This document shows, in pieces, positions 7,004-62,966 of a stretch of 64,000 nt of DNA. Below the pieces are notes generated by a model. That model did no database searches. It saw only the letters and a list, made by a program, of their open reading frames with translations, and was not told where the DNA came from. The stretch covers positions 12,997,846 through 13,061,845 of the forward strand of contig OZ023267.1 in the NCBI GenBank assembly GCA_964006375.1, in the 5' to 3' direction. This DNA comes from Tillus elongatus. Lineage: Eukaryota; Arthropoda; Insecta; Coleoptera; Cleridae. How positions within the stretch are numbered: the first letter of the stretch is position 1; each line of letters begins with the position of its first letter. A program made the translations under genes and the position numbers.

Positions 7004-7080
7004 AGAGATACAAATGTTTTTAGTATCTTTTTTTTGTCTGTTAAGTCGAGCAAATTGAAATCAAACATATAAAGGGCTCA

Positions 7081-7296
7081 ATAAGTGAAGATTGGAACCT
7101 ATGATGAGATGAGGACTCATAAGTACAATTTGGAGAATCCAATTCATCACAATACAGTTTTTAGACCTGATGATCGTTTCACTAACAATGTTAGCGTTAG
7201 TTTATTCATTCATCTGATGACGCTAATTTTGTTAGCGAAACGATCATCAGGTCTGAAAACTGTATTGTGACTTATTGAGTTCTCCAAATTGTACTT
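7081..7296. mobile_element. Foldback element H1 (216 bp) with hammerhead-like core
   Basis: Arms of about 75 bp are inverted repeats (GTACAATTTGGAGAA to the left, TTCTCCAAATTGTAC to the right). The element is flanked by a 14-bp direct repeat, ATATAAAGGGCTCA, at 7067-7080 and 7297-7310. The right arm holds CTGATGA at 7214-7220, a GCTAAT/GTTAGC hairpin and GAAAC at 7237. It has the same outer sequences as H2 and H3, in the opposite orientation. Confidence 0.75.
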
Positions 7297-7559
7297 ATAT
7301 AAAGGGCTCACCTTTTTCTTTCACCATCTGCTTAAAAGTTTTGTCATGTAAGTCACAGTGCACAGTTGGGAGTGTTGACTGAATATATAAATATTTGGAA
7401 TTTTATTCTACTTACAATGCTGTAAAAGCGAAACCAGTTAGTAAGAAGCTATTGTGAGGCCATAGGCAAAATCTTTACATCTGTATTTAGCATGGAATGG
7501 TTTCACCAAATTAAGGCGACATAATAAATATTTTCATACTATAGCTAAGAATTGTAGTG

Positions 7560-13083: not shown

Positions 13084-13343
13084 ATATTCTTGAAACACGA
13101 AATCAGCCGGTGTGTTCTGTATAACCTGTATTGTCATTATAGAGAATTTGCAGCACCCACAGCATTATACTGTGACATATAATTGTTTTATCCTTGACAG
13201 ATGACAGCGGACTGCACCTTTACCTCCATCTCCAGCCGTTTGTGCAAACAAAACAGTTTTAAGAGAAAATTTCGCCAATATAATATTTGTACAACCTTAA
13301 ATTCATTTTAGAGTTAATTGTGATTTTAATATCAAAATTAACC

Positions 13344-15599
13344 ATGAGTGTGAATAAAGGGAGTCAACTTGGTGATTGCAACTGTACAACATTTCATAGG
13401 AGTGACTGCATGTATAGCGGTGATGACATCTTCGTAGATGGCTTTGATACTGAAGACAAAGATTTAGTGTTAAAACACGAACGAAACTCCGATCATTATC
13501 AGATAGGGGCAGTGGAAATTACACACAACACAGGATATAATACGATGTCATTTACTATTAAAATGGAGAAGATCGAAGGACAGTGTTTAGATGGAGCAGA
13601 ACGTGACTTTATAAGCGAGATGAATATAGATGAAGTAAGCAATGAGAGAACTGGAGCCTTTGAAGGTGTTGCAGGTGAACAGATAACTGATGAAAAAATT
13701 GAAAATGCTTTTAATAAAAGTGAAATGATTATAGAAGGTGTCAAAATTGAAACGCTGGACCATGGGTGCGCAGGCCTCGGTAATCATAACATTGTCGATC
13801 TGAAAGATGTATTAGTGAAAAATGAAGTAGATACAAAATTAAAAGACAATGCAAAATGTTCTTACAATTGCAACACAGACAATTACAAAACTGCAAGGAA
13901 AATCGATGTACCACAACCCATACAGTCGAAACGGACTAGAGAAGAACCTTTTAAATGTTATCAGTGTGACTTAAGTACTGCCCACAGGCACACTTTACCA
14001 TGTCATATGAGCACAGAACATTCTAAAAAAAGACTTTATAAATGTGATCGGTGTGATCATTGTACTGTTACAAAGTTTCAGTTATCACTACACATAGAAG
14101 CAAGACACACTAAAGAAAGACCTTTTAAATGTGATCAGTGTGATTATTGTACTGTTACAAAGTCTAAGTTAACACCACACATAATGGCAAGGCACAGTGC
14201 AGAAAGGCCTTATAAATGTGATCAGTGTGATTATTGTGCTGTGAGAAAATCGCTCTTAACACAACATATAACATCAAGACACAGTGAAGAGAGGCCTTAT
14301 AAATGTGATCAGTGTGATCATTGTACTGTTACAAAGTCTAAGTTATCACAACACATTAGAGCAAGGCACACCAAAGAAAGGCCTTATAAATGTGATCAGT
14401 GTGATTATTGTACTGTTACAAAGTCTAAGTTAACACAACACATTACAGCACGGCACACTAAAGAAAAGCCTCATAAATGTGATCAGTGTGATTATTGTAC
14501 TGTTACAAAATCTAAGTTAACACAACACATTACAGCAAGGCACACCAAAGAAAGGCCTTATAAATGTGATCAGTGTGATTATTGTACTGTTACAAAGTAT
14601 ATATTTACACAACATATTATGGCAAGACACACTGAAGAAAGACCTTATAAATGTGATCAGTGTGATTATTGTACAGTTAAAAAATCTAACTTAACACAAC
14701 ACATACAAGCAAGACACACTGAAGAAAGACCTTATAAATGTGATCAGTGTAATTATTGTGCTGTTGCAAAGTCTCAGTTAACAAGACACGTAAAAGCAAG
14801 ACACACTGAAGAAAGGCCTTATAAATGTGATCAGTGTGATTATTGTACAGTTAGAAAATATAATTTAACAGAACACATAAGAGCAAGACACGGTGAAGAA
14901 AGACCTTATAAATGTGATCAGTGTGATTACTGTACTGTTACAAAGTCTAGCTTGACACAACACATTACAGCAAGGCACACTAAAGAAAGGCCTTATAAAT
15001 GTGATCACTGTGATTATTGTACTGTTACAAAGTCTAAGTTAACACGACACATAATGGCAAGACACAGTGCACAAAGGCCTTATAAATGTGATCAGTGTGA
15101 TTATGGTACTGTTAAAAAGTATATATTAACACAACATATTATGGCAAGACACACTAATGAAAGGCCTTATAAATGTGATCAGTGTGATTATTGTACAGTT
15201 AAAAAATCTAACCTAACACAACACATAAGAGCAAGACACACTGAAGAAAGACCTTATAAATGTGATCAGTGTGATTATTGTACTGTTACAAAGTCTAAGT
15301 TAACACCGCACATAATGGCAAGACACAGTGCACAAAGGCCTTATAAATGTGATCAGTGTGATTATTGTTCAGTTACAAAGTCTAAGTTAACACTGCACAT
15401 AATGGCAAGACACAGTGCACAAAGGCCTTATAAATGTGATCAGTGTGATTATGGTGCTGTTAGAAAATCTGTCTTAACACAACATATAACATCAAGACAC
15501 AGTGAAGAAAGACACAAATGTGATCATTGTGATTATTGTAGTGTTACAAAGTCTCTGTTAACACAACACATCAAGACACACAGAAGAAAAACCTTATAA
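13344..15599 (+). CDS. Tandem C2H2 zinc-finger protein (18 complete fingers)
   Basis: The protein is 751 aa, taking the ATG at 13344 (context AACCATGA); the upstream open frame has no ATG. Residues 1-200 are acidic with no domain I recognise. From about residue 203 there are 18 complete fingers at a 28-residue period, C-x2-C-x12-H-x4-H, with TxERPYK linkers, so sequence-specific nucleic-acid binding in the nucleus is expected. Most fingers read KCDQCDYCTV plus a variable helix plus HxxARH. Variation is concentrated at helix positions -1, 2, 3 and 6. A 19th finger is cut by a small frameshifting deletion near 15570, and the stop at 15597 is the result. More finger sequence follows out of frame. 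An acceptor-like ATTCATTTTAG ends just before the 5' leader, so a non-coding exon may lie upstream. Confidence 0.85.
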   Translation: MSVNKGSQLGDCNCTTFHRSDCMYSGDDIFVDGFDTEDKDLVLKHERNSDHYQIGAVEITHNTGYNTMSFTIKMEKIEGQCLDGAERDFISEMNIDEVSNERTGAFEGVAGEQITDEKIENAFNKSEMIIEGVKIETLDHGCAGLGNHNIVDLKDVLVKNEVDTKLKDNAKCSYNCNTDNYKTARKIDVPQPIQSKRTREEPFKCYQCDLSTAHRHTLPCHMSTEHSKKRLYKCDRCDHCTVTKFQLSLHIEARHTKERPFKCDQCDYCTVTKSKLTPHIMARHSAERPYKCDQCDYCAVRKSLLTQHITSRHSEERPYKCDQCDHCTVTKSKLSQHIRARHTKERPYKCDQCDYCTVTKSKLTQHITARHTKEKPHKCDQCDYCTVTKSKLTQHITARHTKERPYKCDQCDYCTVTKYIFTQHIMARHTEERPYKCDQCDYCTVKKSNLTQHIQARHTEERPYKCDQCNYCAVAKSQLTRHVKARHTEERPYKCDQCDYCTVRKYNLTEHIRARHGEERPYKCDQCDYCTVTKSSLTQHITARHTKERPYKCDHCDYCTVTKSKLTRHIMARHSAQRPYKCDQCDYGTVKKYILTQHIMARHTNERPYKCDQCDYCTVKKSNLTQHIRARHTEERPYKCDQCDYCTVTKSKLTPHIMARHSAQRPYKCDQCDYCSVTKSKLTLHIMARHSAQRPYKCDQCDYGAVRKSVLTQHITSRHSEERHKCDHCDYCSVTKSLLTQHIKTHRRKTL

Positions 15600-29740: not shown

Positions 29741-31025
29741 CGATCAATAAGTACGTGACTTTTTGAATTTCCTGCCTCATCACAGGAAGGGCAACACTGC
29801 TCCTGTCAACAAGCATCTGTCAGTTGACTCCTGTCAAATGTTCAACAAGCTGTGTCATTTAGTTTGTGTTAGATAGCTATTGAAAGCAGATAACCTCTTG
29901 AGTTATAACGAAAATGGAAAAAAGTGAATTTCATGTACGCATCAAACATTATTTTTTGTGAAAAAAAAAACAACACTCAAACCAAGGCTAAGCTTAACAA
30001 ATACTATGGGAACTCTGCACCATCAATTTCCATGGTAAAAAAGTGTTTTACTTAATTTCGTTGCGGCCGCACAAGCACAAATGAGGCCGAACGTTCTGGA
30101 CGCCCAGTTGAGGCCACTACATCCGAAACAATTGAAAAAATTCACGATATGGTGTTGGCCAATCGGAGATTGAATGTGCAGGGGATTGTGGAAGCCAGAG
30201 GCATATCACATGGCTCAGTGGTTTTGATTTTGCATGATCACTTGGGTATGAAAAAGCTATCCGCAAGATGGGTGCCGCGTTTGCTCACATTTGACCACAA
30301 ACACAATCGTGTGACAACTTCGAAGGAGTGTTTGGCATTGTTCAACCGCAATAAGGACGACTTTTTACGCCGTTTCGTAACCGTTGACGAAACATGGATT
30401 CACCACAACACACCAGAGACCAAGCAGCAGTCAAAACAGTGGGTTTCTCCGTGGGAATCGGCGCCGAAGAAGGCCAAGGTGGGTTTGTCAGTCAATAAAG
30501 TCATGCTGACCGTTTTTTGGGATGCACGTGGCATAATCCATATTGATTACCTTCAAAAGGGAAGAACAGTCAATGGCGAATATTATACCAACTTATTTGA
30601 CTTATTTAATAAAGATTTGAAGAAAAAACGACCGCATTTGACCAAGAAAAAAGTTTGTGTCCACCAAGACAATGCAAGGGTGCACACATGTGTAGTCTCC
30701 ATGGCGAAATTGCATAAATTGGACTACGAATTGCTTCCTCATCCGCCCTATTCTCCGGATTTAGCCCCGAGTGACTATTTCTTGTTTCCAAACTTAAAGA
30801 AAGAGCTCGGCAGAAAGAGATTTAACTCCAATGATGAAATTATCTCACAAACAAATACCTATTTTGAGGGCCTCTGCAAATCTTATTTTTTGGAAGGGAT
30901 AAAAAAATTGGAGAAACGTTGGATGAAGTGGAGCTGAAAGGAGACTATGTTGAGAAATAAGATGATTTTTTGTCAAAAAACCTGTGTTTCATCTAAAAAG
31001 TCACGGAATTATTGACCTGCCCTCA
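29741..31025 (+). mobile_element. mariner element 1 (1.29 kb, flanked by TA)
   Basis: The ends carry inverted AAGTxCGTGACTTTTT-type repeats; the left terminal 8 bases have decayed (CGATCAATAAG instead of CGAGGGxxxGTCAATAAG). TA dinucleotides flank at 29739 and 31026. The size matches mariner. Sister copies are at 55371-56625 and 62038-62966. Confidence 0.85.
29914..30937 (+). pseudogene. mariner transposase, N terminus broken
   Basis: The original start is the ATG at 29914 (MEKSEF). A poly-A slip at about 29960-29970 and a stop near 30052 break the N-terminal helix-turn-helix. From 30149 a 262-aa frame is open with VTVDETWIHH, VCVHQDNARVH and SPDLAPSDYFLF, giving the DD34D triad (34 residues between the second and third Asp). 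SHGSVVLILHDHLGMKKLSARWVP precedes the catalytic core. It is inactive as it stands, but the catalytic domain is preserved. Confidence 0.88.
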
Positions 31026-31059
31026 TAGTTTCAGATCTTAATTATTTCATGTAACTGTA

Positions 31060-31350
31060 AGTACACTTGGAGAACACCCAAAATCACCACAACACATATT
31101 TCAAAGACCTTACGATCGTTTCGTTGACAATGTTAACATCTTCAGAGGAAGAAAATTCACATAGTAAAGTATACAATGATAGACCAGAAGTAAAAGTATT
31201 TTAGAAGAATTTAGCAGAATTTTCTTCCTCTGAAGATGTTGACATTGTCAACGAAACGATCGTAAGGTCTTTGAAATATGTGTTGTGGTGATTTGGGTGT
31301 TCTCCAAGTGTACTTATTAGTGCTCATCACAGGTTCCAGTTTTCACATAG
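31060..31350. mobile_element. Foldback element H2 (291 bp) with two hammerhead-like cores
   Basis: The arms are inverted repeats (GTACACTTGGAGAAC and its complement). A 13-bp duplication TCATGTAACTGTA flanks it at 31047-31059 and 31351-31363. The right arm on the plus strand has CTGAAGA at 31230-31236, a GTTGAC/GTCAAC hairpin, GAAAC at 31253-31257, GATC and GTA then AGG. The left arm carries the same on the minus strand (31106-31145). Confidence 0.8.
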
Positions 31351-31364
31351 TCATGTAACTGTAG

Positions 31365-32190
31365 TTGTCAAAAATTTATAGATGCTAAAGACTACAAAAA
31401 TATATTTACGGGTCTTTATTCACAAGCTAATTAAACTTAGAAAAACACCTGTTTTGAACTGGGGCACATATCTAAGGATATCCCAGACCCTACTAAATGC
31501 CCTTGCTCTTATAAAAACTTATCGGACTATACAAAAGCAGTATGTTATGATAAGAGATAGTATGGATAGAGGTAAAAAAGGGTATCCCACAAGAGTCAAC
31601 TTTGGGCCCAGTGTAATATATTTTATTCACAAACACCTACCATCATTACTAAAGCATCAAACGGTGCCTTTTGCAGATGGCACATCTTTGATTTTGATGA
31701 CAAAAGAAGAGATATATGCTTGGATTTGTGAAGCGTTTAATATCTTGGAGAAATGGTTGAGTGCAAACAAACTTATATCTCATAAAAACAGCATTCATAA
31801 GGAGCTTCCAAGTGCGCTTAATATAAATTACAAAGATACAGAACTTACCTCAAGCAAAAGTACACAGTTTCTGGGTGTCTGGATAGAGTCACTTCTTAAT
31901 TGAAATTCCCATATGAGTTGCCTGGCTGGTTTTATTGCATCGTTTGCATTTGTGTTGCATACAGTTACTGGTGTAGTGAGTCGAGAGAGCATTTAGGGCC
32001 TTTAATGCATTTATCCAGTCTTGCATAAGGTATTGACTTACGTTTTGGGGCAACTCGTCAGACACATTAAGAATATTTAAGCTGCAGAGAAGGTGTCAAC
32101 AAGGTGTTTTCAACTTGAAGAAAAGAGCTGTCTGTGTTAAAAGCTTTAAAAATTATGAGATACCTTTCATTGTCTTTATACACGGTGTCC
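31365..32190 (+). pseudogene. LINE family E remnant (RT palm to C-terminal domain)
   Basis: Frames include LPSLLKHQTVPFADGTSLIL (FADG where FADD is expected), EAFNILEKWLSANKLI, and DTELTSSKSTQFLGVWIESLLN. Further frames downstream resemble the RT thumb (SCIRYxLTFWGN, LQRRC). The catalytic second Asp is lost and frames shift repeatedly. It begins right after element H2. Confidence 0.7.
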
Positions 32191-32716
32191 TGATTATACT
32201 TTAAAAAATTAGGGTGTGAGTTGCCCTTGAAAAAATAGTGTGGATAGTTCGTATAACATTTATCATTGTAAGGTCGTGGTACTGAAATACAGGTGTTAAA
32301 GTTGTTACGCTAAAAGCGATTTTCATTAATTATCTTTAAAACGGCTAAAGACAAGATTTTCAAAATTTGTACACGAGTAAATATTAATAGCATACAAAGA
32401 AAAACTCAAAATCCTATTTATTATGTGAAGCAGTGGCACACGTGGGGGCATTCAGCATTATAATTTAGAAAAAGTAAAAATTTCTGAAATTTTCCAACGG
32501 TTTAAAAAAATTCAAAGGCCAATACAAAAATAAGGTATACTGGTAGAAATGCCATAGGATGTACAGTTTTCAAGAAAAATGGAGTTAAAATTGTTTATTC
32601 ACTAAAGACGCACGAGTATTAATTTAGATTTTTAAACTGAAAGTTTATGTTACTATGGATACAGCAAAAGTTGTCAGCAGAAGCTTAAATTGTTAAACAA
32701 TAAATTTTTGCTTTTG
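32191..32716. other. Intronic, nothing recognised
   Basis: No ORF or repeat signature could be assigned between LINE E and LINE G3. This lies within NAA15 intron 4. Confidence 0.4.
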
Positions 32717-33108
32717 ACCCCCCCCGAGTGAACTGGCACCCAGTTGAGGGTGACCTCATTCTGCCCAGCCAGGTCGCTCGTCTCGTCTCTGCATGCTGGG
32801 GGTGTCCAGCAATACCTCCATGGCGGCTGTTGGGGTCGAGGTCATGGCCCCTGTGATGCCGAGGCAAGCCATCCTTTGGATCTTGCCTAGTTTTTGTTTG
32901 GCACTGGATTGTGTCACCTTAGGCCACCAAACCAGTGCCCTTGTGTACAGCCAGTGGGCCATACTGGGTCTTAGTCCCCACGTTTTTCCATATAGCCTAG
33001 TGATGGCTAGGGTCATAACTGCCTTGCGCAGTATTTTTTCAACGTGCCCATTCCAGGTTAGCTTAAGAGTCCAATACGACCCAAAGATATTTTACCTCCC
33101 CGGCCCTC
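32717..33108 (-). pseudogene. LINE family G copy 3 (RT C-terminal piece joined to RNase H start)
   Basis: The minus strand reads RPSMAHWLYTRALVWWPKV and KLGKIQRMACLGITGAMTST, a post-RT region of RNase H-bearing LINEs (R1/I-type), then jumps to the DLAGQNEVTLxWVPxH beginning of RNase H. The material between is deleted. The same deletion style is seen in copy G2 at 53022-53945. Confidence 0.7.
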
Positions 33109-34240
33109 GGGATGTTTCTACCATATAGAGTGAGAGTTCTGTGGCCCTCCCACTTCATCCTCCTCGTAAATGGTATGACGGTGGCTTTGATTCCGTATTA
33201 CAGTATGATGAGGGTTTTCATCGCTCCAATAATGCATGTTATGTATGTTGAAAACACCATCGCGAGTAAAACTAGCTTCATCGGTAAACAAAATTAATGA
33301 CTGAAAATTTTGCCCTTGATTTTGCAACCACTTATATAGGGGGTGTTATTCGTTTGGCAATCTATGTCATAGAGTCTTAAGTTTTGGATCTCAGGTAACC
33401 CCCTAGATGTCATTGAAAAAGTGAGAAAATGAGTTTTATCCGAATTTTCAAGGTTAACAGATCCGAGTCAAGCCAGTTGTTTAATCTTTGCCATCTCCTC
33501 TCCGGCCTTGTCAATTGTATTTTTCCAAGTCCCATCTCTGAGCAGCACAACTGTATCATCTGCGAAACATATGACCCTGCTCTCCTTGGATACTTCTGTC
33601 AGAGAATTGACATACGTCAAGAAAATGATAGAACCCAGCACTGCCCCCTGTGGGACACCACACACCGCAGGCTTTGAACTACTTCTATTTTCATCTATTT
33701 TTACTACTTGAGTTCTGCCTCTTAGATATGACTCGAGTAAATTTAAGGCCAGTCCTCTTATGCTGACTTTTTCCAATTTTGACAACAAGATCTCGTGGTC
33801 TACAGTGTTGAAATCCTGTTCAGTAGGTGATGAATTTTTAGGGAATGAAATCGGTGAAGAAGTTTTTCTTTGGGGACTTGCCTTACTGACTCACGGTTAA
33901 CATTCGGTATAGCAGCACTTATTCTTGTGCTGCTTATTCTCAGATTATTTTCTACTATTTGCAATGTAGCTTATTCGTTTGCAGCAGTATGACGAGTTCT
34001 GGGACCCCAGGTACAACTTTTGCTTTTTCAAAGCAGCCATCTTCTCCCAAGCGCCTATGCACTTCAATAAATGTTCTAACATAAGGAACTTGTCTTATTG
34101 GATATCTCTATTGATAGACACGTTGAGCTTCGGAACAATTTGATCCGGCTTCGCCAAGTAAAATGAAAAGGCATATACAAGGTGATTCATTAGCCTGTTT
34201 ACAAACTTTGGCAATGAAAAATATAATTAGTTTCATAAAA
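33109..34240 (-). pseudogene. DDE transposon (HTH/DUF4817 type) split by LINE H
   Basis: The N-terminal part at 33840-34240 (minus) has pieces like PKLNVSINRDIQ, FLMLEHLLKCIGAWE and the following AALKKQKLY, resembling the helix-turn-helix region of this family. The catalytic part at 33109-33420 has LILFTDEASFTRDGVFNIHN, which holds the first Asp. Between them lies an RT fragment (33425-33835). The second and third catalytic blocks are missing. Confidence 0.6.
33425..33835 (-). pseudogene. LINE family H, RT fragment nested in a DDE transposon
   Basis: The minus strand encodes LNLLESYLRGRTQVVKI, VCGVPQGAVLGSIIFLTYVN and VICFADDTVVLL (FADD intact), then EEMAKIKQLA. The fragment ends in DNA matching neither neighbour. 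It differs in sequence from all other LINE families in the window. Confidence 0.75.
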
Positions 34241-34289
34241 AAATGTTAATATAAACCCATGTAAACAGAAAGATTGACATTGTGCACTG

Positions 34290-36250
34290 ACTTTGCTAAG
34301 TGATACCCTGCATTTAATGCTCTTAGAGTGCGGCTTAGTAAGGAGTATGTGCATCACTTACAGGCCACAAAGACACAATATTATGACAATCGAATGGAGA
34401 ACTCTTCAAATAAGACAAAGGCTATGTGGGACATTATCCATCAGATTAGAAACAGGGATTAAAATTAAAATGATTTAACAATAAAAATAGATGGTAGGCA
34501 ACTTCCTTATCCTCAGTTATCCAATTAACTCAATAGACAGTATCCACATATGCATGGAGATGATGGTGTTGAGGTGGTTTTCTCTTTTTGGACTCTTGTG
34601 TGCCTTTTATGTCCCAACTCTGTATTCTTGCTGCCTCTTGATGAATGTGATGTTTTGGACATAATTACAAATCTAAAGCGTTTAAAGTCATCTGGCTGCG
34701 ATGAGGTGCCAACAGACTTGCTGAGAAGTGTGCATGATCTTGTTTGTATGCCGTTTGTTTATATTATTAATTTGTGTTTTGAGCATGGAATATTTCTGAC
34801 AAGATTCAAAGAGGCTTTGGTTATGTTACTTTATAAAAAGTGACCCATACATATTTCTAAACTATCATCGTCAGCCTTTTGTCATCTTTTTCTATCATTT
34901 TTGAGCAGACTATTAACAGCCAATTTGTTGCATTCTTCAATAAAAAATAATATTTTACGTTGTCGCAGCATGATTTTACTTGAGGTAGGAGTATGGATAC
35001 TGCTTTCTCTGATTTTGTGTGCCAAATTGTAGATGCTGTAGACAGAAAGATTAACTGTATGGGGTTGTTTATTGATTTCTCGGGTGCTTTCGTCTGTGTG
35101 GTGCACGAAATCTTGCTACATAAGTTATATGGTGTTAGGGGATTGCCGTTGAAGCTAATTTCATCATATTTGCAAGGCAGAACTCAAAGAGTTAAGTTGT
35201 CAAATGATGCCGTCAGTGAAGCACTGCCTATAAACTTGGGAGTTCCGCAGGGTTCTATTTTGGGTCCACTGCTTTACCTTGTGTATGCAAGTACACTTGG
35301 AGAACCCAAATCACCACGAACACATATTTCAGAGACCTTACGATCGTTTCGTTGACCATGTCAACATCTTCAGAGGAAGAAAAATTAAAAAAAAAATTAT
35401 TTTTAGAGTAAAAAGAATTTTTTAGAATTTTTCTTCCTCTGAAGATGTTGACATGGTCAACGAAATGATCGTAAGGTTTCTGAAATATGTGTTGTGGTGA
35501 TTTGGGTTCTCCAAGTGTACTTGTTAGTGCTCATCACAAGTTCCAGTTTTCACATACTGGTGTATGCAAATGACCTGTCCGTCTTCCTTAAGAACATTAA
35601 TAATATAACTACTACAGACAAAAACTGAGACTATTCTTTGGGTCAGGACGCTCAACAAGTATTTGTAATTTACCAGATGATTCTTCCATGTAAAGATTTT
35701 GGGTGTGGTCTGTGACTGTGATATGCAATGGCTTTCACATGTCGAGTTTTTTGTGGCAAATTGAAAACATGTTGTTGCACAAAATCGGTGAGCAGTGTCT
35801 GTAGCGTGGGAGTTGTTTTGAATATGTACCATGCATGTTTTCACTCCCTTGTGCGGTATGCATTCTGTTTTGGGGAGGTGTTTCGGAGGCAGAGCGTGTT
35901 TTTCGCATACAAAAGTTGATTGTTAGAATTATTGCTGGTGCTGCATTTCGTGATTCTTGCAAACATTTATTTAGGCATCTCAATATTCCAGCTGTTTACG
36001 ACACATACATCTACGAGTTGTGTTGCTTCGTTTATAGGAATCACACCACTTTTTATCGGAACAGAGTGATACATGCTTACGATACAAGATGCCAGAATTT
36101 GCTACCTGAAGCTCACTCAATGGCCTTTTGCCAGAAAAATGTTTTTATAATGGTTGTCGTTTTTATAATGCCCTGCCTAGTGAAATTAGAGGATTAAACA
36201 CATTTAGTGTTTTCCAAAAATCTTTGAAAGATTTTTTTATAAATATATTT
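34290..36250 (+). pseudogene. LINE family F, split by foldback element H3
   Basis: Decayed frames show LKSSGCDEVPTDLLRS, LFIDFSGAFVCVVHE, LISSYLQGRTQRVKLSND, LGVPQGSILGPLLYLVYA, then, after element H3, YANDLSVFLKNINN, and later IVRIIAGAAFRDSCKHLFRHL. The 5' part from 34290 contains a spacer-like region (ENSSNKTKAMWDIIHQIR). The order is that of a Jockey-like LINE. Stops are numerous. LINE A4 follows at 36255. Confidence 0.75.
35290..35559. mobile_element. Foldback element H3 (about 270 bp) with two hammerhead-like cores
   Basis: It has inverted arms as in H2 and is flanked by GTGTATGCA(A) at 35281-35290 and 35560-35569. Removing the element and one duplicate restores the LINE F frame exactly at LVYANDLS. 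The left-arm core (minus, 35334-35373) is fully preserved: CTGAAGA, GTTGAC/GTCAAC, GAAAC, GATC, GTA, AGG. The right-arm core (plus, 35439-35478) has one change (GAAAT). Confidence 0.85.
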
Positions 36251-41657: not shown

Positions 41658-41671
41658 GTGAGTCAACTGTG

Positions 41672-41800
41672 TGAAAACTGGAACCTGTGATGAGCGCTGA
41701 TAAGTACACTTGGAGAATCCAAATCACCACAACACATATTTTTAAAGACCTTACGATCGTTTCACTAACCATGTTAGCATCCCCAGATAAACGAACTAAG
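41672..41800. repeat. Foldback/Penelope end fragment with decayed hammerhead-like core
   Basis: GTGTGAAAACTGGAACCTGTG, then AAGTACACTTGGAGAATCC and AAAGACCTTACGATCGTTTC match the single arm of H1-H3. On the minus strand the core shows GCTAAC/GTTAGT, GAAACGATCGTAAGGTC, but CTGGGGA in place of CTGANGA. It starts 14 bp after the exon 6 donor. Confidence 0.7.
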
Positions 41801-43871: not shown

Positions 43872-44640
43872 AACTATCTTTAAAAACTTGCTAGGTAACC
43901 CAAAAGACAAGGATAGCACGGTCAAAATGTCGGGAATTTATGAAATAAGTTGTAAAGATTGTAATCTTAAGTACGTCGGACAAACAAAAAGATCGATTGG
44001 AATTAGATTCAAAGAATACTTAGCCCAATTACGATACGGTACTATAGACAGATCATCCGTCGCCAGACATATTTGGGATAATAATGATCACATTAATGAA
44101 GATAATCTAAAATTAATAAAAAACCGTTAGACAACCAGGACAGCTGAACGTGTTCGAGAGTATATATATTACGAAATATAGTTACAACAAAAAATATATG
44201 AACGTTTTTCCTCCCCCGATTCCTAGTCACCTGATCGATTGCTTTGTAAAATAAATTCCCACGTTTCAACACGTCCTCGAGATAACATAAGAATACTGAT
44301 ATTTTCGCCAAACGAAACTATGTTAATTTAGTTGTCGTTGTCTTCCCAAAATTATTAGAGATCGACACCTTTTAGATTAGTTAATAAAGACAGTTCAAAG
44401 ACCTCGTCCGGCGATAAAAATACAATACACTGCAGAATTTGCCTGCGACTAGTTCCCCTCTCCATTCCATTTTTTTACCTAAGATCCGGTATATAAGGTG
44501 ATGTTAGTTTTTAAAGCAGTTAGCATTTTTCATCCCCTTATGACGCCAACTTGGTTAGTGAAACGATCGTCAGGTCTTTTTTAAAATGTGTTGTGGTGAC
44601 TCCAAGTGTATTTATCAATGCCTATTGTTGTGTCAGTGGA
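43872..44640 (+). pseudogene. Penelope-like element 3' part: GIY-YIG endonuclease and hammerhead-like 3' UTR
   Basis: The frame 43888-44130 has SGIYEISCKDCNLKYVGQTK (GIY and the equivalent of YIG), RFKEY, and SSVARHIWDNNDHINEDNLK, the layout of Penelope-like GIY-YIG domains. After a frameshift at about 44128 the text continues with LNVFESIYI and MNVFPPPIPSHL-like words. Downstream, 44537-44576 is a hammerhead-like core. The reverse transcriptase part is not present. The element ends near the motif CTCCAAGTGTATTTATCAATG shared with H2/H3. Confidence 0.75.
44537..44576 (+). ncRNA. Hammerhead-like ribozyme core in Penelope 3' region
   Basis: CTTATGA (expected CTGATGA), C, GCCAAC-TTG-GTTAGT hairpin, GAAAC, GATC, GTC then AGG. 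The stem III of one C-G pair closed by palindromic GATC, with a GUC triplet, is the minimal form reported in Penelope-like elements. Two changes in the first motif suggest this copy is inactive. Confidence 0.5.
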
Positions 44641-50772: not shown

Positions 50773-50944
50773 GCAAGGCTAGATGCATTCTCGCAACAAT
50801 TAGAACCGTAGACCAGTTTCGCTCTCATTAGAGCTCTTCAGTACGGCATACTAATTGCAGCAAAAATACATCTATAAAGTAATACAGCTATAGTAGCCAG
50901 CCTTTCAACACTAATTAGGTGGCGGACGTGCTGCCACCTAGTTG
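50773..50944. repeat. Second-family foldback unit (single arm) with hammerhead-like core
   Basis: CTAGATGCATTCTCGCAACA, then GAACCGTAGACCAGTTTCGC and CTCATTAGAGCTCTTCAG match 19845-19904 almost exactly. The core on the minus strand lies at 50803-50841. It ends in GTGGCGGACGTGCTGCCACC, matching the arm of 19838-20367, and is joined to LINE A5. Confidence 0.75.
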
Positions 50945-62037: not shown

Positions 62038-62966
62038 CGAGGGCGGGTCAATAAGTCCGCGACTTCTTTAATTTCCCGCCTCTTCACAAGAAGAGCAACA
62101 CTGCTTCTGTCAACAAGCATCTGTCAGTGGACTCCTGTAAAAGTTCGAACAAGCTGCGTCATTTAGTTTGTGTTAGATAGCCACTGAAAGCAGACAACCT
62201 CTTGAGACGAAAATTAAAAAAAGTGAATTTCGTGTGCTCATCAAACATTTTTTGCGGAAAAAAAACCATCACTCAAACTAAGGCTAAGCTTGATAAATAC
62301 TATGGAGACTCTGCGCCATCAATTTCCATGGTAAAACAGTAGTTTACTGAATTTCGTTGCGGCCATACAAGCACAAATGACGCCGAACGTTCTGGACACC
62401 CAGTTGAGGTCACTACACCCGAGACAATTGAAAAAATTCACGATATTGTGTTGGTCGATTGGAGATTGAAAGTGCGGGAGATTGTGGAAGCCATAGGCAT
62501 ATCACATGGCTCAGTGGTTTCGATTTTGCATGATTTTGTGTATGAGAAAGCTATCTGCTGGGTGCCGCGTTTGCTCACAATCGACCACAAACGCAATCGT
62601 GTGACAACTTCGAAGCAGTGTTTGGCGTTGTTCAACCGCAATAGGGACGAGTTTTTGCGCCGTTTCGTAACCGTGGACGAAACATGGATTCGCCACAACA
62701 CAGCAGAGACCAAGCAGCAGTCAAAACAGTGGGTTTCTCCGTGCGAATCGGCGCCGAAGAAGACCAAGGTGGGTTTGTCAGCTAAAAAAGTCATAGCGAC
62801 CGTTTTTTGGGATGCACGCTGTATAATCCATATAGACTACCTTCAAAAGGGAAGAACAATCAATGGCGGATATTATACCAACTTGGACAGATTCAATGAG
62901 AATTGAATTGAAGAAAAAACGACCGCATTTGGGCAAGAAAAAGTTATTTTCCACCAAGACAACACA
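62038..62966 (+). mobile_element. mariner element 3, 3'-truncated
   Basis: The left end CGAGGGCGGGTCAATAAGTC is the best-preserved TIR of the three copies, preceded by TA (62036). The transposase frame 62448-62906 has VREIVEAIGISHGSVVSILH, FVTVDETWIRHNTAETKQQS and KVIATVFWDARCIIHIDYLQ, then a frameshift at about 62900. The element stops at about 62966, inside the HQDNA block, so the right third is gone. Confidence 0.85.

Follow-up and report, generated by a model that had tools for sequence, protein, structure and literature searches.

Three short foldback insertions, H1, H2 and H3, lie within a 64-kb stretch of Tillus elongatus DNA (the window), and their arms resemble the core of a hammerhead ribozyme. 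The locus raises the question of what kind of element these insertions represent, and what part the ribozyme-like motif has in their spread. A sequence-only reading had placed them at 7081-7296, 31060-31350 and 35290-35559, which is correct to within 1 nt, and had taken them for an unusual inverted-arm ribozyme element in its own right. The observation of foldbacks with hammerhead-type cores is real, and to that extent the reading is partly confirmed; the elements are instead head-to-head leaders (pLTRs) of Penelope-like elements (PLEs), an arrangement known for PLEs. Perfect direct repeats of 14, 13 and 10 bp, absent from the sequence-only reading, flank H1, H2 and H3, respectively, marking each as a precise insertion. 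The features of the window are as follows.

7067-7080, no strand: left target-site duplication of H1, 14 bp
7081-7296, no strand: H1, pair of family B pLTRs placed head to head; its left arm (minus sense) has the tail and its right arm has none
7169-7197, minus strand: H1 left-arm core, decayed, partial covariance model match (E 8.9e-7)
7211-7251, plus strand: H1 right-arm hammerhead-type core, GATCATC, stems I and III weakened (covariance model E 3.2e-15)
7297-7310, no strand: right target-site duplication of H1, 14 bp
31047-31059, no strand: left target-site duplication of H2, 13 bp
31060-31350, no strand: H2, pair of family A pLTRs placed head to head around a 46-nt spacer; its right arm has the tail and its left arm has none
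31108-31148, minus strand: hammerhead-type core of the H2 left arm, with a single mismatch in stem II by eye (covariance model E 5.9e-18)
31227-31267, plus strand: hammerhead-type core of the H2 right arm, with A9 at 31236 and a predicted cut between 31264 and 31265, in the training set
31319-31350, plus strand: H2 tail, arm positions about 115-146
31351-31363, no strand: right target-site duplication of H2, 13 bp
35281-35290, no strand: left target-site duplication of H3, 10 bp, final base also assignable to the element
35290-35559, no strand: H3, family A head-to-head pLTR pair, tail on the right, within an apparent LINE RT frame (by eye)
35336-35376, minus strand: H3 left-arm hammerhead-type core, found by exact descriptor and covariance model, in the training set
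35436-35476, plus strand: hammerhead-type core of the H3 right arm, with A9 at 35445 and a predicted cut between 35473 and 35474
35528-35559, plus strand: H3 tail
35560-35569, no strand: right target-site duplication of H3, 10 bp
41660-41790, minus strand: F4, lone tail arm, core at 41749-41789 (minus) found by covariance model, in the training set
44509-44621, plus strand: F5, further decayed arm, core at 44534-44574 found by covariance model

The arms are identical in kind to PLE pLTRs. Arm sequence lies downstream, in sense orientation, at 14 of 20 GIY-YIG endonuclease loci sampled from at least 150 in the genome, which bears out an earlier pointer to PLEs; at two of the 20, L093 and L101, there was no arm within the stretch examined. 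At C1:84.496-84.499 Mb, one PLE carries on its left side a no-tail arm and a 3'UTR, both inverted, and on its right the ORF, the 3'UTR and an arm plus tail; in all five tandem-unit stretches the frame MAPRSTELNLYRK... begins 6 nt beyond the tail. In Pfam, the RT stretch corresponds to RVT_1 and the GIY-YIG stretch to GIY-YIG. Proteins similar to the RT ORF carry RVT_1, PF26215 and often GIY-YIG, with top identities of 50-57% among the 120 of 467 matches listed, most of them unnamed. The features by which a PLE is recognized are therefore present: an RT plus GIY-YIG ORF linked to the same termini, pLTRs that are direct or inverted with an optional tail on one inverted pLTR, and short target-site duplications. 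Six single-arm candidates for full-length PLEs (L026, L027, L031, L041, L044 and L047) were rejected, having no arm-linked common body upstream; at least L041 and L027 retain the stub of a second arm. Likewise, L111:1268-1760, a candidate for the 5' region of the ORF, is actually an inverted 3'UTR copy.

One 34-nt segment of the arm has 4,995 exact copies in the genome, and its reversed control has none. Among the first 100 places of this 34-mer, 14 of 16 arm pairs less than 500 bp apart are head to head, and five of six same-strand pairs are spaced by 3078-3080 bp, the length of a PLE unit. Leader-only pairs make up 18 of 34 loci in a stratified sample. H1-H3 had been described as sharing the same ends, a description that leaves out their asymmetry: one arm bears a tail of about 32-38 nt. 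In a sample not chosen on the tail, all 20 two-armed loci (19 independent) follow a one-tail rule, one arm ending near +115 with the tail and the other near +83 without it, and the outer ends are fixed. The rule also holds in the three long elements and in 66 of the 81 loci of a similarity-ranked sample, the first searches having covered the best-scoring 40 loci of 1127 and of 6944 candidates. Within the best-scoring sample, two of 41 family A and one of 40 family B loci appear two-tailed, and with the H1 query a tail is unclear at three of 40 family B loci; at L074, one of these three, a different query reveals it. Target-site duplications measure 7-15 bp in all 20 tail-unselected loci and 8, 12 and 12 bp in the long elements; in the first sample they reach at least 6 bp in 61 of 66 loci and at least 10 bp in 35, where by null lengths a 7-bp duplication is attainable by chance.

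The inner ends vary more. By eye, a TATA-like box lies about 31 nt before the arm inner end in 13 of 14 PLE copies, and the inner ends fall mostly at the TATA-predicted RNA 5' end. In family A, the tail arm extends at least as far as position 11 in all 33 pairs, and the no-tail arm reaches 11-14 in 23 pairs and is shortened to 16-77 in the other 10; family B junctions are variable too. A 77-nt query for inner ends returned no candidate, its words perhaps being too common. One end-to-end junction is common to nine of the 33 family A pairs. Joining at a common RNA 5' end would account for it, as would the spread of some foldbacks as units; such spread is unsupported by arm similarity or by most junctions, although those nine pairs do share theirs. 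No-tail arms did not form a separate lineage when arm similarity was compared. Arms within an element are only slightly more alike than arms paired at random (of 1000 permutations, 48 and 82 reach the same identity), and a single RNA molecule behind both arms is thus unsupported.

H1-H3 are very probably short PLE insertions consisting of the 5' leader only, made by priming on both strands followed by joining. The PLE mRNA would start at the TATA-driven site in the pLTR, and its first approximately 140 nt would include the hammerhead-type motif as well as two sites where reverse transcription starts, at about +83 and +115 from A9, ahead of the main ORF. We propose that the PLE endonuclease nicks both target strands and that at each nick the 3' end serves as the primer for reverse transcription on PLE RNA, the tail arm from the +115 site and the no-tail arm from the +83 site. 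Both cDNAs would extend toward the RNA 5' end and be joined there, in many cases with a few bases of filler or of shared sequence, which would leave the arms inverted and head to head between the copies of a short target-site duplication, the hammerhead being a passenger within the leader. Two-strand priming, the RNA start position and the order of steps are what we infer from these ends. Since their ends are identical, leader-only copies would be moved by the PLE enzyme. For an Anolis PLE, both strands are cut and extended, and reverse transcription begins at an internal position of the RNA, 111-118 nt into the ORF, with the tail lying between two such start sites (PMC11167929).

An inverted pair could also arise from one priming event, if the first cDNA formed a hairpin and served as its own template. 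Such self-priming is the preferred reading of the inverted structure in the available part of PMC3846280, which describes palindromes at the inverted junctions of Adineta PLEs, and many family A junctions are almost perfect palindromes. It predicts a tail on both arms, however, whereas every tail-unselected two-armed locus has a single one; the no-tail arm ends within a narrow range of its own (111-118 in these 20 loci), and 13 of the 33 family A pairs leave 0-1 nt between the arms or have them overlapping by one, where a hairpin turn normally needs more. We regard self-priming as improbable. Far less credible is a DNA-transposon foldback or MITE, with a transposase acting on terminal inverted repeats: near-perfect inverted arms, the thousands of 34-mer copies and precise duplications would suit it, but the duplications vary in length, the ends are asymmetric, and the adjoining PLE ORFs largely refute the action of a transposase. 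We give equally little credence to a retrozyme, an independent small non-autonomous element spreading as ribozyme-processed circular RNA. The motif, small size and high copy number are shared with metazoan retrozymes, and L178 contains one direct join of an arm end to a cut site. Metazoan retrozymes are nevertheless described, in the available text of PMC7229834, as direct tandem repeats with canonical type I hammerheads, whereas near pairs in T. elongatus are mostly inverted rather than tandem, the arms are linked to a PLE ORF, and all but one of the six same-strand pairs keep the PLE unit spacing.

The proposed two-strand priming of PLE leaders leaves the nature of the motif itself to be considered. 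A hammerhead core is defined by C3 U4 G5 A6 N7 G8 A9, G12 A13 A14, the A15.1-U16.1 pair and H17. The complete core residues are present in the H2 right arm and both H3 arms; in the H1 left arm, F4 and F5 they are altered, and these copies lack the defining core. The order CTGA(A/T)GA, extra pyrimidine, stem II, GAAAC and GATC, attributed to the arms by the sequence-only reading, stands for most of them, with CUGANGA absent from the H1 left arm; GTA or GTC after GATC fails for H1, both arms of which read GATCATC. An exact descriptor with a 3-bp stem I found H2 right (+31230), H3 right (+35439) and H3 left (-35373) in the window, and two further matches (-50841 and -19904) have no stem I pair; 300 Markov-1 control windows gave one match with a 3-bp stem I and 12 matches altogether. 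A covariance model built from the arms found eight window sites at E < 1e-6, three of them its own training sequences, all in H1, H2, H3, the 41.7-kb fragment and the 44.5-kb copy, the next site having E 0.17; the H1 left arm aligns to model positions 10-38 only. Among tail arms, a core with stem I is present on 24 of the 32 in family A and three of the 34 in family B; among no-tail arms the corresponding figures are 12 of 32 and six of 34. Applied to other PLE families, the model gave E 5e-4 for L090 and E 0.013 for L095 and L097. A core scan of viral contigs gave a single GC-rich contig, L001, which resembles coding DNA and is taken as a chance match.

That the arms of H1-H3 bear a hammerhead-type core with covariation is supported; a ribozyme element in its own right is not, and H3 as one transcript folds into a single long hairpin (-176.8 kcal/mol, z -26.6) that buries both cores. 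The stem II differences between H2/H3 and the 41743-41790 fragment are as had been claimed, and pairing is conserved across families, with 52 of 54 cells paired over nine stem types, a result equalled by one of 20000 shuffles. MAFFT put stem II of families C and D in the wrong place, and pairs were therefore counted at stated positions. Among eight close sequences, 94.3% of stem II cells are paired (equalled by one of 500 shuffles) and two pairs are altered on both sides, no excess over shuffles (335 of 500); within family A, pair 3 changes on both sides in L156, L157 and L159. An extra base, which had been called a pyrimidine, is indeed present in A9-N-G10.1 and is not always one: the triplet reads AUG in the C and D motifs and in most of family A, ACG in most of family B, and AAG in L089. 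Because the ORF of the Anolis PLE begins where stem II begins (PMC11167929), the extra base may be the trace of an overlapping start codon.

By its structure, the PLE leader hammerhead is predicted to cleave itself. One hint of cleavage in vivo comes from arms that start exactly at the predicted cut. By eye, inner ends lie clearly at the cut in seven of 26 arms, namely L166, L167, L168 and both arms of L176 and L177. L162, L164 and L178 are ambiguous or complex; nine loci with a point variant at the cut base and an intact upstream leader do not start at the cut, nor do L170 (a 3-nt insertion) or L175 and L179 (GTC type). The sample comprised 20 loci, of which L174-L179 were chosen as close pairs and L176-L178 for short spacing, and left out most 'CAGGTCTTT' rows of at least 100; a rough background for inner ends is three events in 106 arms, two of which (59 and 64) are near the cut. 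We put at even chances the reading that the leader hammerhead cuts RNA in the living insect and that cut RNA serves as template, possibly for both cDNAs (L176, L177).

The hammerhead likeness could instead be a relic or a coincidence, the stem being kept for protein binding or translation control, for example; we hold this to be a minority possibility, though a substantial one. No Rfam hammerhead matched the whole window at gathering level, nor any of nine loci and two stretches of the window at E <= 10, which weakens the formal hammerhead claim, with the qualification that Rfam might not include minimal PLE hammerheads; miRNA-type and other sub-cut-off matches in these searches were put down to the foldback or to repeats. 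In minimum-energy folds of four isolated cores stem II forms, but part of CUGANGA pairs elsewhere, and the arm-based model misses the L092 motif. In the Anolis system, ribozyme mutants still insert, cleavage is dispensable in vitro and depends on the addition of protein, and none of the reads had its end at the presumed cut (PMC11167929). Against a relic or coincidence stand the retention of core residues and stem II across families with otherwise unlike pLTRs, the two-sided change within family A and the arms beginning at the predicted cut.

Inverted pLTRs, an optional tail, short target-site duplications and minimal hammerheads are already known for PLEs. As far as the available text of PMC3846280 and PMC11167929 extends, Penelope/Poseidon-type PLEs (D. 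virilis Penelope, Adineta Pen2a, Anolis PAc) likewise have an RT plus GIY-YIG ORF and pLTRs, an inverted pLTR on one side, target-site duplications, an optional 30-40 nt tail at one end, a hammerhead-type pLTR motif and an RT start 111-118 nt from the stem II start, the head-to-head arrangement being reported in PMC3846280. The minimal hammerheads of PLEs (Cervera and de la Pena 2014, as described in PMC6155905) likewise have a core in the pLTR and a small or absent helix III. The available sections of a D. virilis TE paper (PMC12910113) do not mention inverted pLTRs, and the word hammerhead is absent from the paper. T. elongatus differs from the Penelope/Poseidon type in that leader-only pairs are common, the main ORF begins after the tail rather than at stem II, and the A9-U-G of family A opens a 9-codon frame.

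The ends and joints of these leader hairpins are a record of how a retrotransposon is copied into DNA. With thousands of near-identical arms, both the head-to-head copying of PLEs and an in vivo role of the ribozyme become readable from junctions, which reveal a pair of fixed RT start sites that every sampled insertion used once each, joined RNA 5' ends, and a possible class of insertions beginning at the ribozyme cut. If that class is genuine, the genome would hold a countable record of ribozyme activity in vivo, kept as insertions that start at the cleavage site.

H1, H2 and H3, foldbacks of two head-to-head arms each (family B in H1, family A in H2 and H3), were proposed in the sequence-only reading as discrete elements, and the perfect target-site duplication (TSD) on both sides of each identifies them as precise insertions. 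One arm of each carries an extra outer tail of ~32-38 nt, and the H3 host site is, by eye, a LINE-type RT frame.

Arm elements in the window and their flanking repeats
7067-7080 and 7297-7310: TSD of H1 (7081-7296), 14 bp, perfect direct repeat
31047-31059 and 31351-31363: TSD of H2 (31060-31350), 13 bp, perfect direct repeat
35281-35290 and 35560-35569: TSD of H3 (35290-35559), 10 bp, perfect direct repeat
41660-41790: additional arm copy
44509-44621: additional arm copy

The window also contains mariner-like transposase frames (30056-30937 and 62343-62906) and a 771-aa frame of many C2H2-type zinc-finger repeats (13284-15599), all recognized by eye, as well as an NAA15 exon with insects among the named matches.

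Judged by sequence, the arms are pLTRs of Penelope-like elements (PLEs), apparently serving here as the mRNA leader, because of the company they keep. The 1.72 Gb genome holds at least 150 GIY-YIG matches above the cut-off, and among 20 of these loci, most of them picked for a long open frame and each read over 941-1011 nt, 14 have the arm downstream in sense; the pointer to Penelope-like elements holds, the arm sitting beside PLE ORFs. Four others (L090, L092, L095 and L097; L-numbers denote stretches fetched elsewhere in the genome) bear another hammerhead-like motif, and L093 and L101 have neither arm nor such a motif in the stretch taken. An element at C1:84.496-84.499 Mb is built, in order, of a no-tail arm and a 3'UTR, both inverted, then an RT + GIY-YIG ORF, a second 3'UTR and an arm with tail, and a long open frame starts 6 nt past the tail in all five tandem-unit stretches. 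Pfam domains are RVT_1 in the RT stretch and PF01541 in two GIY-YIG stretches. Among the matches listed, RT relatives bear RVT_1, PF26215 and often GIY-YIG, and those named with an organism come from beetles, mosquitoes, a fly and a whitefly under hypothetical, uncharacterized or unnamed labels. Short frames (MLTLSTKRS, MCCGDLGVLQ...) precede the main ORF in the PLE leader (window 31236-31350 for family A; L155-L159). H1-H3 are ordinary in kind, Penelope insertions bearing a ribozyme motif of known type.

The anatomy of these insertions was read from copies across the genome. A 34-nt arm segment lacking the tail has 4,995 exact copies (reversed control, 0), a search biased to young copies and neutral on the tail. 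Within the first 100 places, 14 of 16 pairs less than 500 bp apart are head to head; at 500-4000 bp, 8 of 15 are head to head and 6 same-strand, five of the latter spaced 3078-3080 bp. We fetched all 14 near head-to-head pairs and 20 isolated places (list order, past the first two); of the longer head-to-head pairs, which number eight, three were fetched at both ends. The 34 loci comprise 18 leader-only pairs (17 independent) and 16 that run on into the PLE 3'UTR, a split that, because sampling was stratified, is no rate. L118 and L119 (C1:6.333 and 6.356 Mb), 23 kb apart with identical TSD and arm layout, are probably a segmental duplication. One tail arm and one no-tail arm occur in 20/20 two-armed loci (19 independent; L128 scored by its outermost arms) and in 3/3 long elements, with outer ends at arm position 141-146 and 111-118, respectively; TSDs are 7-15 bp in the former loci and 8, 12 and 12 bp in the latter. 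An earlier, similarity-ranked set has this arrangement at 66 of 81 loci, the remainder being six single-arm, three apparently two-tailed, three without clear tail and three multi-arm.

Counting from A9, the last A of CUGANGA, the predicted cut directly before AGG lies at +29; no-tail arms end near +83 (family A) or +79 (family B), tail arms at +115 or +113. At its inner boundary, ~20 nt upstream of A9, the arm reads AGAATTTTC; a TATA-like box, found by eye in 13/14 PLE copies printed, stands ~31 nt ahead of this boundary, which is very likely where the RNA begins. In 33/33 family A pairs the tail arm extends to the boundary, and in 23/33 the no-tail arm gets to position 11-14. Junctions are variable, commonly with a few extra bases, one end-to-end junction being common to 9/33 family A pairs; family B junctions vary likewise. 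Tail arms of inserted copies (L011-L048, L104-L108) mostly start CAGAATTTTC, GIY-YIG ORF-bearing PLE copies having T before AGAATTT; the difference may come from an extra C or mark a source subfamily. At L014, L018 and L025 the RNA 5' end is apparently copied twice in part (AGAATTC-AGAATTTTC and similar), as if the enzyme had jumped back to it.

This anatomy would follow if each nicked target strand gave one cDNA, begun at one of two fixed RT sites and extended all or part of the way to the RNA 5' end, and the two cDNAs were then joined. The Anolis PLE enzyme cuts and extends both strands in vitro (PMC11167929), and we infer the same in this genome. Inverted arms were initially thought unusual; PMC3846280 already describes inverted pLTRs, with a tail optional on one. 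Self-priming, favoured there as the origin of the inverted pair, gives no prediction of a tail on one arm only, and we consider it improbable. The two arms of an element resemble each other hardly more than arms paired at random, and the arm comparison revealed no separate lineage of no-tail arms. Among the open-licence papers listed, no title or abstract opening states a two-strand origin of inverted pLTRs.

Hammerhead-like cores on the arms were recovered in two ways. The H2 right arm and both H3 arms match an exact descriptor made up of CUGANGA, 0-1 nt, stem II, GAAA, a short stem III, UH and a 3-bp stem I; among 300 Markov-1 windows there was one match with 3-bp stem I and 12 in total. Two other descriptor matches in the window, at 50841 and 19904 on the minus strand, have zero stem I pairs; these near-identical CTGAAGA...GAAAC stretches lie inside another repeat. 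A covariance model trained on eight arm cores finds eight window sites at E < 1e-6, three of them training rows and all on foldback or arm elements (next best, E 0.17); it also matches family C, unseen in training (L090, E 5e-4; L095 and L097, E 0.013), and leaves the L092 motif unmatched. The suggested check against Rfam was negative: no hammerhead family appears in the window at gathering level, nor in two window stretches and nine loci at E <= 10. The extra pyrimidine noted after CUGANGA stands for most copies, with U or C between A9 and stem II, and not for L089, which has A.

Stem II covaries, as had been claimed. Across nine stem types (four families and two window fragments) 52/54 cells are paired, equalled in 1/20000 shuffles. 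In eight close sequences 94.3% of stem II cells are paired and the covariation score is equalled in 1/500 shuffles; two-sided changes there affect two pairs, no excess over shuffling (335/500). Among tandem copies, GTAGAC/GTCTAC in L156, L157 and L159 versus GTTGAC/GTCAAC in L155 and L158 is a further two-sided change within one family.

A non-A base precedes AGG at 258 arm sites, of which 20 loci were fetched. Seven arms start precisely at AGG (L166, L167 and L168 on one side, L176 and L177 on both arms), coinciding with the predicted 3' cleavage product, a share that is no rate because L176-L178 were picked for short spacing. The others are nine point variants with the leader upstream intact, an insertion (L170), two of GTC type (L175, L179), and the ambiguous or complex L162, L164 and L178. 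L178 contains a direct tandem, in which an arm end abuts another arm that begins where the cut is predicted. The background is rough: 106 arms yielded three truncations across 51 positions, from which ~2 AGG starts (upper bound ~6) are expected genome-wide, against seven in the 20-locus sample alone. RT stopping at the stem could also create such starts, but would be expected near position 64; in the tail-unselected sample the ends nearest the cut are 59 (L127) and 64 (L150), neither exact. Both cores are paired away in the whole foldback fold and stem I is absent from minimum-energy folds of isolated cores; any cleavage would therefore take place in the leader RNA of the PLE, perhaps aided by protein, as in Anolis. 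The foldbacks are informative since thousands of copies supply junctions against which PLE integration and ribozyme activity in vivo can be tested.
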